DNA from: Guptibacillus hwajinpoensis
GTDB lineage: Bacteria; Bacillota; Bacilli; Bacillales; Guptibacillaceae
Direction: 5' to 3'
Length of the DNA: 64,000 nt
Assembly: GCF_020171785.1 (NCBI RefSeq)
Contig: NZ_JAIVAE010000009.1
Location: 62,001 to 126,000, forward strand
The notes beneath the pieces are model-generated. The model saw nothing but the letters and a program-made list of their open reading frames with translations. It was not told the origin of the DNA and did no database searches. Of the stretch, positions 43,913 to 61,040 are shown piece after piece; position 1 is the stretch's first letter; every line of letters begins with the position of its first letter. Position numbers and translations under genes: made by a program.

Positions 43913-44941
43913 ATGAAATCAAGAGTAGCAATTAATGGCTTTGGAAGAATTGGGCGAATGGTATTTAGAAAGGCAATAATGGAAGATAGTTTGGAAGTTG
44001 TAGCAATTAATGCTAGCTATCCGCCAGAAACGCTCAGCCATTTAATTAAATATGATAGCATTCACGGTACATTTGATGGAGAGGTTACACCAATTGAGAA
44101 TGGGATAAAGATTAACAATAAAAAAGTGGTTGTTTTAAATAATCGTGATCCAAAAACTCTTCCATGGAAAGAGATGGGAATCGACATTGTGATTGAAGCT
44201 ACCGGCAAGTTTCGTACGAAGGAAGAAGCTGGTTATCATATTGATGCAGGAGCAACGAAAGTAATCATTACAGCACCTGGTAAGAATGAAGATCTTACAA
44301 TTGTGATGGGCATTAATGAAAGCGAATACAATGATCAGAAACATCATGTTTTATCAAATGCATCTTGTACAACCAATTGTCTGGCTCCTGTTGTTCAAGT
44401 GCTTGATAAGTCCTTTGGAATTGTTTCGGGTATGATGACAACAGTTCATGCATATACGAATGATCAGAAAAACATCGATAATCCGCATAAAGATTTAAGA
44501 AGAGCACGTGCCTGTGGCCAATCAATTATCCCAACGTCGACAGGTGCAGCTAAAGCGATTTCAAAAGTATTGCCTCATTTAGAAGGGAAACTTAACGGAA
44601 TGTCGCTTCGCGTACCGACACCAAATGTGTCATTAGTCGACCTTGTGGTTGATCTTAAGAAAGAAGTGACCATTGATGAAGTTAATGATGCTTTAAAAGC
44701 TGCTTCTGAAGGGCCCCTAAGAGGTATTCTTGCTTACTCTGATGAACCATTAGTCTCAATTGACTACAATGGTAATGCTCATTCTTCTATAGTAGATGGT
44801 CTATCGACAATGGTCGTTGAAAATAAAAAAGTAAAGGTACTTGCTTGGTATGACAATGAGTGGGGATATTCTTGTCGAGTCGTTGACATGGCGAAGTATG
44901 TTGGGGAAAGAATTCCCGAAAGGTTGAAAGTAAGCGTATAG
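43913..44941 (+). CDS. gapB: NADP-preferring glyceraldehyde-3-phosphate dehydrogenase GapB
   Basis: Gluconeogenic GAPDH, 342 residues. NAD(P) fold with INGFGRIGRMVFRKA at the start, catalytic Cys152 in SNASCTTNC, and the substrate loop TVHAYTNDQKNIDNPHKDLRRARA. At the cofactor-specifying loop it has AINASYPPETL instead of the Asp-containing segment of NAD-type GapA, which indicates NADP preference, as in B. subtilis GapB. Paired CcpN boxes predict repression during glycolysis. Unlike the gapB-speD operon I recall from B. subtilis, a strong terminator and a new promoter separate it from speD here. Confidence 0.96.
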   Translation: MKSRVAINGFGRIGRMVFRKAIMEDSLEVVAINASYPPETLSHLIKYDSIHGTFDGEVTPIENGIKINNKKVVVLNNRDPKTLPWKEMGIDIVIEATGKFRTKEEAGYHIDAGATKVIITAPGKNEDLTIVMGINESEYNDQKHHVLSNASCTTNCLAPVVQVLDKSFGIVSGMMTTVHAYTNDQKNIDNPHKDLRRARACGQSIIPTSTGAAKAISKVLPHLEGKLNGMSLRVPTPNVSLVDLVVDLKKEVTIDEVNDALKAASEGPLRGILAYSDEPLVSIDYNGNAHSSIVDGLSTMVVENKKVKVLAWYDNEWGYSCRVVDMAKYVGERIPERLKVSV

Positions 44942-44950
44942 GTGAAAAGG

Positions 44951-44984
44951 AAAGAAGTGGGAGAACGTCTCCCGCTTCTTTTTT
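44951..44984 (+). terminator. Intrinsic terminator of gapB
   Basis: AAAGAAGTGGGAGA (44951-44964) pairs with TCTCCCGCTTCTTT over a 3-base loop with one G-U pair, then more T. The bases from 44985 to 45129 hold nothing else I can identify. Confidence 0.93.
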
Positions 44985-45129
44985 GATTTGGATCACTCAT
45001 GACAACTTTTGAAATAAAGGATAAGTCTCGACAGTTTTGGACATGTTTTAATTATCGCGGAATAAGTAGCAAGTACACTGTATTTTTGAGGTTGAGGATA
45101 CAAAAGCAAAATAAGCATTTAATTTATTC

Positions 45130-45158
45130 TTGCAAAAAAAAAATAAAAGCCTTATACT
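45130..45158 (+). promoter_or_regulatory. Sigma-A promoter of speD
   Basis: TTGCAA (45130-45135), 17-base spacer, TATACT (45153-45158). The predicted start near 45166 gives a leader of about 136 bases before speD. Confidence 0.8.
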
Positions 45159-45165
45159 ATTTTTC

Positions 45166-45301
45166 GTGAACTTCTTTTATAGCAATTTGGCATTGAAAAC
45201 TACTTAAAGGGTTAGGACCTCATCGGACTAACTTTCCCCCGTGGTGGATTTTCAATACCGCATGCTTTAGGCATGAGTAAAAATAAAGGGGGAATTTTGC
45301 T
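45166..45301 (+). ncRNA. Structured leader of speD with Shine-Dalgarno pseudoknot (candidate riboswitch)
   Basis: Pairings read by eye: P1, ATTGAAAA (45192-45199) with TTTTCAAT (45249-45256), extended by GG/CC past a mismatch; P2 inside it, GTTAG (45211-45215) with CTAAC (45228-45232), optionally longer by G-U pairs; a 3' hairpin CATGC (45261-45265) with GCATG (45271-45275); and TTCCCCC (45234-45240), inside P1, with GGGGGAA (45288-45294), which is the speD Shine-Dalgarno. The last pairing crosses P1, so it forms a pseudoknot that would hide the ribosome site. There is no terminator, so control would be translational. I cannot match it to a named riboswitch class. Confidence 0.6.
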
Positions 45302-45691
45302 ATGGATACAATGGGACGTCACGTCATTGCTGAACTATGGGGCTGTGACACTGAAAAATTAAACAACATGAAATTTATTGAAGAAACGTTTGTTGAAGCT
45401 GCTCTTAAGTCTGGTGCTGAGGTTCGAGAAGTAGCATTTCATAAATTTGCACCTCAGGGTGTAAGTGGTGTTGTGATTATTTCTGAATCACATTTAACAA
45501 TTCACAGTTTCCCGGAACATGGTTACGCAAGTATTGATGTGTATACTTGTGGTGATCTTGATCCAAACGTAGCTGCAAACTACATTGCGGATGCACTTGG
45601 AGCGGATACGCGTGAGAACATCGAACTTCCACGAGGCATGGGACCTGTAAAACCAAAAGTGAGAGAAGAACAGTCTGCGTTTACTTCATAA
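45302..45691 (+). CDS. speD: S-adenosylmethionine decarboxylase proenzyme
   Basis: Self-cleaving pyruvoyl enzyme that makes decarboxylated SAM, the aminopropyl donor for spermidine. The 129-residue proenzyme closely follows B. subtilis SpeD: cleavage is expected between Glu62 and Ser63 in [13 protein letters not shown], with the catalytic His and Cys in [20 protein letters not shown] 45302 follows GGGGGAA, which is captured by a leader pseudoknot. Product supply links this gene to the aminopropyltransferase-like enzyme of the PspA operon at 10804-12348. Confidence 0.97.
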
Positions 45692-49294: not shown

Positions 49295-50131
49295 TTGGTT
49301 TCAATAACATTTGATCAAAAAGAAGATTTTCAATTTGTTTATGAACATTTGATAAAGGATAGGGACGTTCAACAAAAAGTCTCCGTTAATGAAGAGGAAT
49401 TAACGCTCTCTGTACAAGTGGAACCATATAATGCCAAGTTGTGTTATCACATCTCCAAATGCATCGTCCGCTGTGTTAGCACCATCTATGAGAAGCGATG
49501 GATGAAACAAATATTAACAACAAAATATTACTATCACGATAAAGATGAAATTGGCGAAATTACAGCAATTGCAAAAAGTATTGGAGAGGGAGACAAAGAA
49601 GAACTCCCTCGCTCTGATCGCTACACAAAGCGGGTTGATTTATTGCATCGATCAACGTTTTCTTGTATTGAACAGGGCGGAACGATCTTATTTGACTCTT
49701 ATTTACGGTTTCGAACCGGTCCTTATCGAGCTCTGTTAACTGAGCTAATTGGCGAAGCGATTGACGAGTATAAACTTGAGCAAGAATATCAGAATTTTAT
49801 TGAAGCATTAAGGCTTCTTCTTAAATCAAGAGAGGCTCTCCAAGAAAAAGTTGTGCTTGTTTTTGATGGTCGCTACCAATTATATGATCTAAGTGGTCGT
49901 AAGCTTAATGGGATTCATGAAACACTTGATAACATTCCAAATGGACTTTCTTTGGAAGAAATAGATTCTGAAATACTTTTGCCGCTTCTGATTCTTGCTC
50001 CTAAAGAAATTTATTTATATACAGAAGACACGGAAGAAGGGTTGGCTCAAACCATTCGTAATGTTTTTGAAGAACGACTATGTTTTTTTTCGTTGTCACG
50101 GGTTAAAAACTTTTTTTCTGGCAATCATTAA
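49295..50131 (+). CDS. ytxC: YtxC-like sporulation protein
   Basis: A 278-residue soluble protein with a helical C-terminal half (SYLRFRTGPYRALLTELIGEAIDEYKLEQEYQNFIEALR in continuous register around 135-175) that matches YtxC, an uncharacterised putative sporulation protein found between dnaI and thrS in Bacillus. No catalytic motif is seen. The TTG start at 49295 follows GGGGGGAA. It ends about 45 bases before the thrS T-box region starts and may share its promoter-proximal terminator-free gap. Confidence 0.85.
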   Translation: MVSITFDQKEDFQFVYEHLIKDRDVQQKVSVNEEELTLSVQVEPYNAKLCYHISKCIVRCVSTIYEKRWMKQILTTKYYYHDKDEIGEITAIAKSIGEGDKEELPRSDRYTKRVDLLHRSTFSCIEQGGTILFDSYLRFRTGPYRALLTELIGEAIDEYKLEQEYQNFIEALRLLLKSREALQEKVVLVFDGRYQLYDLSGRKLNGIHETLDNIPNGLSLEEIDSEILLPLLILAPKEIYLYTEDTEEGLAQTIRNVFEERLCFFSLSRVKNFFSGNH

Positions 50132-50184: not shown

Positions 50185-50421
50185 TACGTTATTGTTACGA
50201 TAAGGACATGAGATGTTCTGTCTGCTTTAAGAGAGGGAAGGATTGGTGTGAACTTCCTAGCGAGACAAGCATTCTTACCACCTTTGAACTCTGCCCTGGA
50301 AATAGGGTAGCGTTTCTGCTACGTTACAGCAATCTGAGCCGTATAGGATTTCTCTATATGGGAAGCAGGGTGGAACCACGAGATAAAACACTCGTCCCTT
50401 TTTGGGATGAGTGTTTTTTTA
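50185..50421 (+). ncRNA. T-box leader of thrS (tRNA-Thr responsive)
   Basis: The T-box sequence AGGGTGGAACCACGAG lies at 50367-50382; its TGGA would pair with the 3' end of tRNA-Thr having discriminator U. A threonine specifier ACC followed by A is at 50277-50279, late in stem I. The terminator (AAAACACTCGTCCC at 50385-50398 with its complement at 50404-50417, then T) competes with an antiterminator that uses the T-box. Uncharged tRNA-Thr is expected to turn thrS on. It fills the gap between ytxC and thrS. Confidence 0.93.
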
Positions 50422-60789: not shown

Positions 60790-61040
60790 TATGATAAAAA
60801 CAATGATAGAGAGTAGTAAGCTGCCACTGCCTATTTAGGGAGGAAATGCCGTGACTGGAAGCATTTCTATAGGGACGTTGCCGAATTCACTCTGGAGTTG
60901 CCGCTTTGTTCGTTCGAAAGCGGATCGGTTTACAAGCCGTTATTCTTTGCTTAAGGCTGATAGTTGAAACCTATCGGTGAATTAGGGTGGTACCGCGAAA
61001 TCAAATCTTCGCCCCTTTCTGGGGAGCGAGGATTTTTTTA
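60790..61040 (+). ncRNA. T-box leader of pheST (tRNA-Phe responsive)
   Basis: A T-box element: AGAGAGTAG-like start near 60808, the specifier GAA-TTC-A with the Phe codon TTC at 60886-60888, the T-box sequence AGGGTGGTACCGCG at 60984-60997, and a terminator (61002-61015 pairing with 61021-61036 with a small bulge, then T). Uncharged tRNA-Phe should favour the antiterminator and switch on pheST. It accounts for the gap from rlmP to pheS. Confidence 0.95.

Follow-up and report, generated by a model that had tools for sequence, protein, structure and literature searches.

The speD leader of Guptibacillus hwajinpoensis, a copy of a widespread cis-regulatory RNA and a candidate for a new class of translational riboswitches

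The window analysed here, a stretch of 64,000 nucleotides from Guptibacillus hwajinpoensis, holds a gene for an S-adenosylmethionine (SAM) decarboxylase proenzyme, speD (45302-45691; 129 aa; TIGR03330, E 1.6e-40, above the cut-off), downstream of gapB (43913-44941). A leader at 45166-45301 is placed between both genes; all features of the window given below lie on the + strand. A sequence-only reading had proposed that this leader is an independently promoted, translational riboswitch which captures the speD Shine-Dalgarno (SD) sequence through a pseudoknot, and re-reading of the sequence confirmed all of its coordinates for the promoter, helix P1, the inner hairpin, the 3' hairpin, and the anti-SD. 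The same genome carries a second speD, 62% identical, and the SpeD of the Pseudalkalibacillus hwajinpoensis record L031 is identical to that of the window. Other RNA elements of the window are two T-box leaders (50188-50402 and 60794-61019) and an L20 leader (RF00558, 52560-52680), all above their gathering scores.

The leader is preceded by a promoter formed by TTGCAA, a 17-nt spacer, and TATACT (45130-45158), found by a promoter scan and read back from the sequence, and is independently promoted, as had been claimed. This site is one of two promoter-like sites in the 501 bases scanned (44900-45400), versus 1.4 expected by shuffling. No terminator-like site was detected on the + strand of 44900-45400, the leader included, in agreement with the earlier reading, by a scan that is not fully sensitive, since it also missed a hairpin with a T-run after gapB, on the + strand. 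As the leader shows no terminator-like site, terminator-based control was rejected and the control is taken as translational.

The core of the leader is made of nested helices. P1 pairs ATTGAAAA (45192-45199) with TTTTCAAT (45249-45256) through eight perfect base pairs and extends inwards by CUAC/GUGG (45200-45203/45244-45247), with A45248 bulged, giving the complete strands AUUGAAAACUAC (45192-45203) and GUGGAUUUUCAAU (45244-45256). The inner pairs are common to other families, where they covary, and the outer 8 bp are confined, among the leaders viewed, to the genus of the window and its near kin. Within P1, the near-invariant core loop UUAAAGG (45204-45210), which resembles the SD context UAAAGGGGG, is followed by P2 (GTTAG/CTAAC, that is, GUUAG/CUAAC in the RNA; 45211-45215/45228-45232) and by P3 (CC/GG) with its terminal loop (45218-45226). 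This P3 loop is enlarged by an insertion of about 50 nt in L172 (reverse strand, 1499-1617), where both halves of the core are intact. On the 3' side lie the anti-SD CCCCC and a conserved GUG (45236-45243). Outside P1, the helix P0 counts approximately three pairs here (5' strand, 45188-45190; 3' strand CCG, read from the sequence, 45258-45260) versus five to six in other families, and is followed by P4, the 3' hairpin (CAUGC UUUAG GCAUG, 45261-45275; CATGC/GCATG in the DNA), and by the speD SD GGGGG (45288-45292). The + strand of the window holds TTCCCCC only once, at 45234-45240, and this sequence is perfectly complementary to the ribosome site GGGGGAA (45288-45294), with 45236-45240 facing the five SD letters. 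Inside the core, UUAAAGGG (45204-45211) has the same letters as the SD context UAAAGGGGG.

Folding of this single sequence is unremarkable (z = -1.42; folds as stable in 18 of 200 shuffles). In the minimum fold without pseudoknots, the SD is bound by the 5' end rather than by CCCCC, and GGG 45209-45211 pairs with CCC 45236-45238. As the fold energy is not exceptional, the single sequence would be insufficient for any claim, and it is the comparison among leaders that raises this one above chance.

Close relatives were compared in 95 first-copy speD loci, comprising the best 80 of 578 confirmed loci (named records, close to each other and some of them nearly identical) and 15 others, with 78 distinct leaders among them. 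The core CUUAAAGGGUUAGGACCUCNNNGGACUAACUUUCCCCCGUGG is present with few changes in 95/95 loci, in 13 versions of a 45-nt stretch, and each of these loci also has a TATACT that precedes the core and lies no more than 260 nt from speD. In the 80 named loci (3,160 pairs), the identity of the 42-nt core reaches 97.2% versus 41.5% at the fourfold-degenerate sites of speD, a sign of purifying selection on the leader core. The core is absent from the second speD copy in 15/15 loci, and GGAGG precedes the start of each of the 15 printed; only one of the two paralogs therefore has the leader. One of these leaderless copies (L002, 1477-1896) is flanked, as judged by eye, by squalene-hopene cyclase-like and aldehyde dehydrogenase-like ORFs. 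Bacillus-type speD genes with the leader also appear under L060 (titled Chryseobacterium sp. ISL-80) and L088 (Pseudomonas sp. ISL-84), two genomes that are possibly mislabelled.

The predicted transcript starts with a conserved 5' end, GUGAACUUCUU (45166-45176), located outside the core and yet shared by most printed leaders of Bacillaceae. This element could pair in part with the SD, or with UUCAC farther 3', and might act as a second anti-SD or as part of an outer helix. Its complementarity to the SD has a mean z of -1.54 (equalled by no more than 5 of 100 shuffles in 32 of the 78 distinct leaders) and that to the linker a mean z of -1.14 (18 of the 78), values that are only a hint because the leaders are related. 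The 5' end also bears on the proposal that a short GUG-started ORF is translated and regulates speD as a leader peptide. In the window, a frame of 13 codons begins with the GUG at 45166 and terminates at the core UAA. This frame extends to that UAA in only 18 of the 78 distinct leaders, however, and in none of the 78 is the speD SD preceded by another SD-like site with its own start. Attenuation by a uORF or leader peptide was rejected on the poor conservation of the ORF, and we regard such a mechanism as extremely improbable.

Of 50 distinct cores, 39 were used to build the covariance model R1, and 39 of the 67 columns, the core loop UUAAAGG among them, are invariant across these cores. P1 covaries already within this training set, where P2 never varies; RNAalifold favours a shifted register of P1 on the same sequences, and the register adopted here is, unlike that preference, the covarying one. 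Support for the model was counted on 98 R1 matches (93 distinct), which were hand-chosen for spread and fitted to R1, and whose counts therefore lean towards the model. In this set, 93.0% of the cells are paired versus 18-43% when the strands are slid (maximum 43.1%), both-sided changes occur at 11 of 14 pairs, and the covariation score is 0.367 versus at most 0.101 for slid strands. Within P2 and P3, two of seven pairs are invariant, and one departs only through unpaired cells. Most near-identical loci were excluded from the set, as were 15 of the 44 rows of one batch (L148, L150, L152, L160, L162, L165, L167, L168, L183, L184, L187, L188, L190, L191, and L194). P0, together with an asymmetric internal loop, is seen in other families: a set of 30 sequences (26 of 29 printed ones plus four others) holds both-sided changes at two of its six pairs, with 91.7% of the cells paired, and in the genus of the window only about three pairs of the helix are left.

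Diverged leaders were sought with a second covariance model, R2, trained on six of them, with G1092 also a training genome. In the Bacillota class of G1092, a structure drawn by eye on the aligned sequences, after the Bacilli model, has 99.1% of its cells paired over 11 distinct sequences and both-sided changes at 11 of 29 pairs, versus three or fewer when slid (P0 1/5, P1 5/6, P2 2/7, P4 3/6). None of these sequences took part in the training of R1; G1092 (L169 = L282) belongs to that of R2, and L284 is nearly identical to it. The 11 were taken from 13, leaving out L280, which is near-identical, and L278 (G843), with a long and different inner hairpin. The core-loop sequence UUAAAGGG is kept in 8 of the 11. 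Regarding L278 (reverse strand, 1501-1633), ACCAGG-UUCA, ACCCACCCCC, and the GGGGG site before speD are kept, and a cobalamin riboswitch lies close to this leader (L278, 1792-1973, + strand).

P1, P2, the 3' hairpin, and the outer helix are therefore conserved by covariation, also in a class outside the training of R1, which supports the earlier reading as to P1 and the inner hairpin. P0, P1, P2/P3, and P4 are nested around a near-invariant internal loop (5' UUAAAGG, 3' UUCCCCCGUG) in a promoter-proximal leader, whose internal loop is complementary to the speD SD. The conserved covarying structure, together with the near-invariant letters of its loop, gives the leader an aptamer-like character.

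These patterns also bear on the possibility of an element without a ligand, such as an RNA thermometer, a pocketless fold sensitive to Mg2+ or polyamines, or a target of Hfq and small RNAs. Polyamines generally stabilise RNA folds. Nevertheless, 39 invariant columns exceed what a thermometer would be expected to need, and P1 (as well as P2 in some families) is compensated while the letters of the loop are largely kept, which makes a ligand-free element decidedly unlikely in our view. Support for it comes from B. subtilis, where a sequence of 79 nt separating gapB and speD, listed as 'Unknown or speD leader region', was enriched together with Hfq (PMC3574147); according to the same report, a speD leader had been suggested in this species by earlier work. 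This listing is also an early indication of a leader RNA at speD, and as such counts for the riboswitch reading as well.

The distribution of the leader is wide. R1 matches 323 of 397 genomes sampled in the order, 190 of 398 in the class, and 9 of 398 in the phylum, three samples that overlap, with eight of the nine phylum matches falling in Bacilli. Among the matches listed, each matching genome has a single one, and the positive genomes include species of the Bacillus subtilis group. R2 matches seven of 299 phylum genomes, one of which (G843) is outside the class, and 12 of 61 genomes in the class of G1092, the training genome G1092 included. It also matches six of 20 chosen leader-negative genomes, a result that is not independent, because all six are training genomes whose leaders it was trained on. 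The leader thus reaches at least one other class of Bacillota, and G843 may represent a further one. Spread by viruses was rejected, as the exact core pattern had no match in viral_contigs.

The link to the gene is exclusive in the loci tested. In 162/162 loci, the RNA is immediately followed by a SpeD gene in the same orientation; these loci represent 161 distinct places (L169 = L282) and comprise 89 (L111-L199), 60 (L200-L259), and 13 (L278-L290) loci. They were fetched by the RNA models without protein information, from better-scoring or hand-picked matches rather than from all of them. The distance from the RNA to SpeD is positive in 161 loci; in L278, SpeD follows the R2 match at a distance of zero. 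The gap between an R1 match and the projected SpeD start measures 32-69 nt. No polyamine gene was recognised by eye 3' of speD in the ORFs of L192, L178, L169, and L171.

This exclusive association favours a signal specific to SpeD, either decarboxylated SAM (dcSAM), spermidine, or SpeD itself. Ribosomal proteins and some enzymes repress their own translation by binding to their leaders, and the chief rival to a riboswitch is such an autogenous control, in which the SpeD protein or its proenzyme would bind the leader. Finding only speD downstream, and one match per genome among those listed, also fits this explanation. However, the RNA core varies little across loci whose SpeD proteins are as little as 40% identical to that of the window (range 40-100%; below 50% in 39 of the 162 loci), the second speD copy of the genus goes without the leader, and we know of no RNA-binding role of SpeD, which is counted against it. 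Control by SpeD itself is accordingly considered unlikely.

The leader does not accompany every speD, nor is its loop always kept. SpeD scored above the cut-off in 15 of 37 leader-negative genomes searched, and 12 of such loci were viewed by eye. Six of them (L263, L264, L265, L268, L270, and L271; Paenibacillales-type, an order guessed from the sequences) keep an outer module, UAGGAACCAGG-UUCAC/GUGAAUGRCGYAGGUCC, in which the inner core has been changed or lost. L266 retains just CCCCC and GGGGG, and the other five show no core, including L262, with a GGGGG site and no CCCCC. A Bacillaceae-1 RNA match (RF01690) was also found in L264 (2384-2450, reverse strand), inside an RNase P RNA match.

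The complementarity between the anti-SD and the SD is nearly constant. CCCCC is present in 97 of the 98 leaders, and so is GGGGG with a start codon at SD distance, as judged by pattern, L195 being the exception in both cases. The contiguous complementarity in the 95 near loci spans 8 bp in 48, 7 in 27, 6 in 11, and 5 in 9, with GGGGG beginning 75-104 nt after the start of the core. In the second class, the five CCCCC:GGGGG pairs are invariant (5/5). Since both partners are so constant, the pairing rests on invariance rather than on covariation and the pseudoknot is inferred: the complementarity called for by the earlier reading is kept in 97/98 leaders, and the lack of variation neither supports nor refutes the pair. 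GGGGG is uncommon as an SD but not unique, as a rough count over 64 window ORFs assigned it to four, among them speD, versus 15 with GGAGG. The other starts scored with a GGGGG SD are those at 49295, 56826, and 58517.

The diverged leaders bring some variation to this pairing. In favour of it, both the anti-SD and the SD have changed in L264 and a 9-pair duplex persists, with 3% of 300 shuffles as good. The inner segments of L263, L264, L265, and L270 pair with their own SD better than approximately 97-99% of 300 shuffles, that of L271 better than 90%, and that of L268 better than 55%; in L268, CCCCC is absent and shuffled sequences do as well as its best duplex (0.45), which, like L195, counts against the pairing.

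The sequence-only reading had placed the leader in no known class, and the Rfam search agrees. Against Rfam 15, the + strand of 45166-45301 gave nothing up to E 10, and on the opposite strand one match, below threshold, overlaps it by the ten bases at its 5' end. Searches within other leaders returned no match in 20 loci (E <= 0.1), in 10 loci (E <= 1), or in a further 10 leaders (E <= 2), six of which are without the motif or most of it. Assignment to any Rfam 15 family was therefore rejected for the leaders scanned, which had no match to SAM-II, SAM-III, SAM-V, SAM-VI, SAM/SAH, or preQ1-II, whose models were presumably all in the library searched. A SAM-I riboswitch, or the spermidine variant of SAM-I, was also rejected, with no RF00162 match at the leader. 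In the titles and abstracts of the open-licence papers that the searches listed, no structural or functional account of the motif was found, and the main text of PMC2784878 does not mention speD. Knockout strains of speD and speE are listed for B. subtilis 168 (PMC10853860).

SAM itself deserves attention as a ligand, since it is the substrate of SpeD, and a SAM riboswitch could turn speD on when SAM is plentiful, either as an independent class or as a relative of a known one; the SAM/SAH class, for instance, is an H-type pseudoknot that acts on translation (PMC7367207, PMC10516623). Nevertheless, no SAM family of Rfam matches the leaders scanned, and the genome is already equipped with 14 SAM-I riboswitches (RF00162), none of them on the contig with speD. 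Moreover, SAM sensing should also have placed the element at further SAM genes, but speD follows it in each of the 162 loci tested. A SAM-activated switch is for these reasons held to be rather unlikely.

Taken together, the speD leader is a real and widespread cis-regulatory RNA, apparently uncatalogued, and probably a translational riboswitch, with dcSAM, spermidine, and SAM as candidate ligands. As for the riboswitch claim of the earlier reading, a structured, independently promoted, covarying leader of the translational type is borne out, with an anti-SD:SD pairing and a small-molecule sensing that are putative. We consider it quite probable that 45166-45301 is one copy of this 'speD leader RNA', controlling the translation of speD through SD sequestration as a candidate for a new class of translational riboswitches.

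In the mechanism proposed, CCCCC would pair with the SD, forming a pseudoknot that closes the translation of speD. The conserved loop would act as a putative binding pocket, whose occupancy decides whether the SD is held by CCCCC or free, with UUAAAGG/CCCCCGUG as the letters proposed to respond to the ligand. Because UUAAAGGG repeats letters of the SD context, this internal sequence could compete with the SD for CCCCC. The most likely ligand would be a product of the SpeD pathway acting as an off-signal, either dcSAM or spermidine, ahead of SAM as a substrate signal, as product-driven off-control would be the simplest economy. The most specific version of this model has somewhat less than an even chance, in our estimation: a new, widespread class dedicated to speD, where dcSAM or spermidine would occupy a putative UUAAAGG/UUCCCCCGUG pocket that includes the anti-SD, so that binding and SD capture would be a single folding event.

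If the leader is a riboswitch, its presence in 323 of the 397 order genomes sampled would place it among the more widespread unrecognised ones, and it would explain how the committed aminopropyl-donor step of spermidine synthesis is set. We know of no dcSAM riboswitch, and this RNA, should dcSAM be its ligand, would be the first RNA sensor of this metabolite known to us.

Several known systems resemble the speD leader in part. SAM-II, SAM-V, SAM/SAH, and preQ1-II are pseudoknot riboswitches that sequester the SD, and the speD leader would similarly control translation by pairing an anti-SD of its core with the downstream SD. Unlike in those classes, its anti-SD lies between P2 and P1, a separate P4 hairpin precedes the SD, and the leaders scanned show no Rfam match. 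SAM-III (the SMK box) and SAM-VI also control translation through the SD and regulate metK; they would share with the speD leader this SD-based control of a gene of SAM metabolism, but differ from it in fold, again with no Rfam match. The L20 leader and other autogenous leaders share the association with a single gene and would share the control of that gene; however, the speD leader does not match the L20 family in Rfam, and SpeD is not a ribosomal protein.

Among the RNAs of polyamine genes, the odc1 motif (PMC8632094) is likewise a structured leader with a pseudoknot, which is inferred in the case of speD, although it belongs to an ornithine decarboxylase gene and has a uORF, whereas the speD leader keeps none. 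The closest parallel in function is the spermidine riboswitch, a variant of SAM-I with 13 reported examples (PMC10853860), which is also a cis-regulatory RNA of polyamine genes, including speD, in Gram-positive bacteria, and which works as an off switch. Unlike that riboswitch, which keeps the SAM-I architecture, the speD leader shows no SAM-I match, adopts another fold, and occurs in more than 300 of the genomes searched. Further classes of polyamine riboswitches are expected by PMC10853860.
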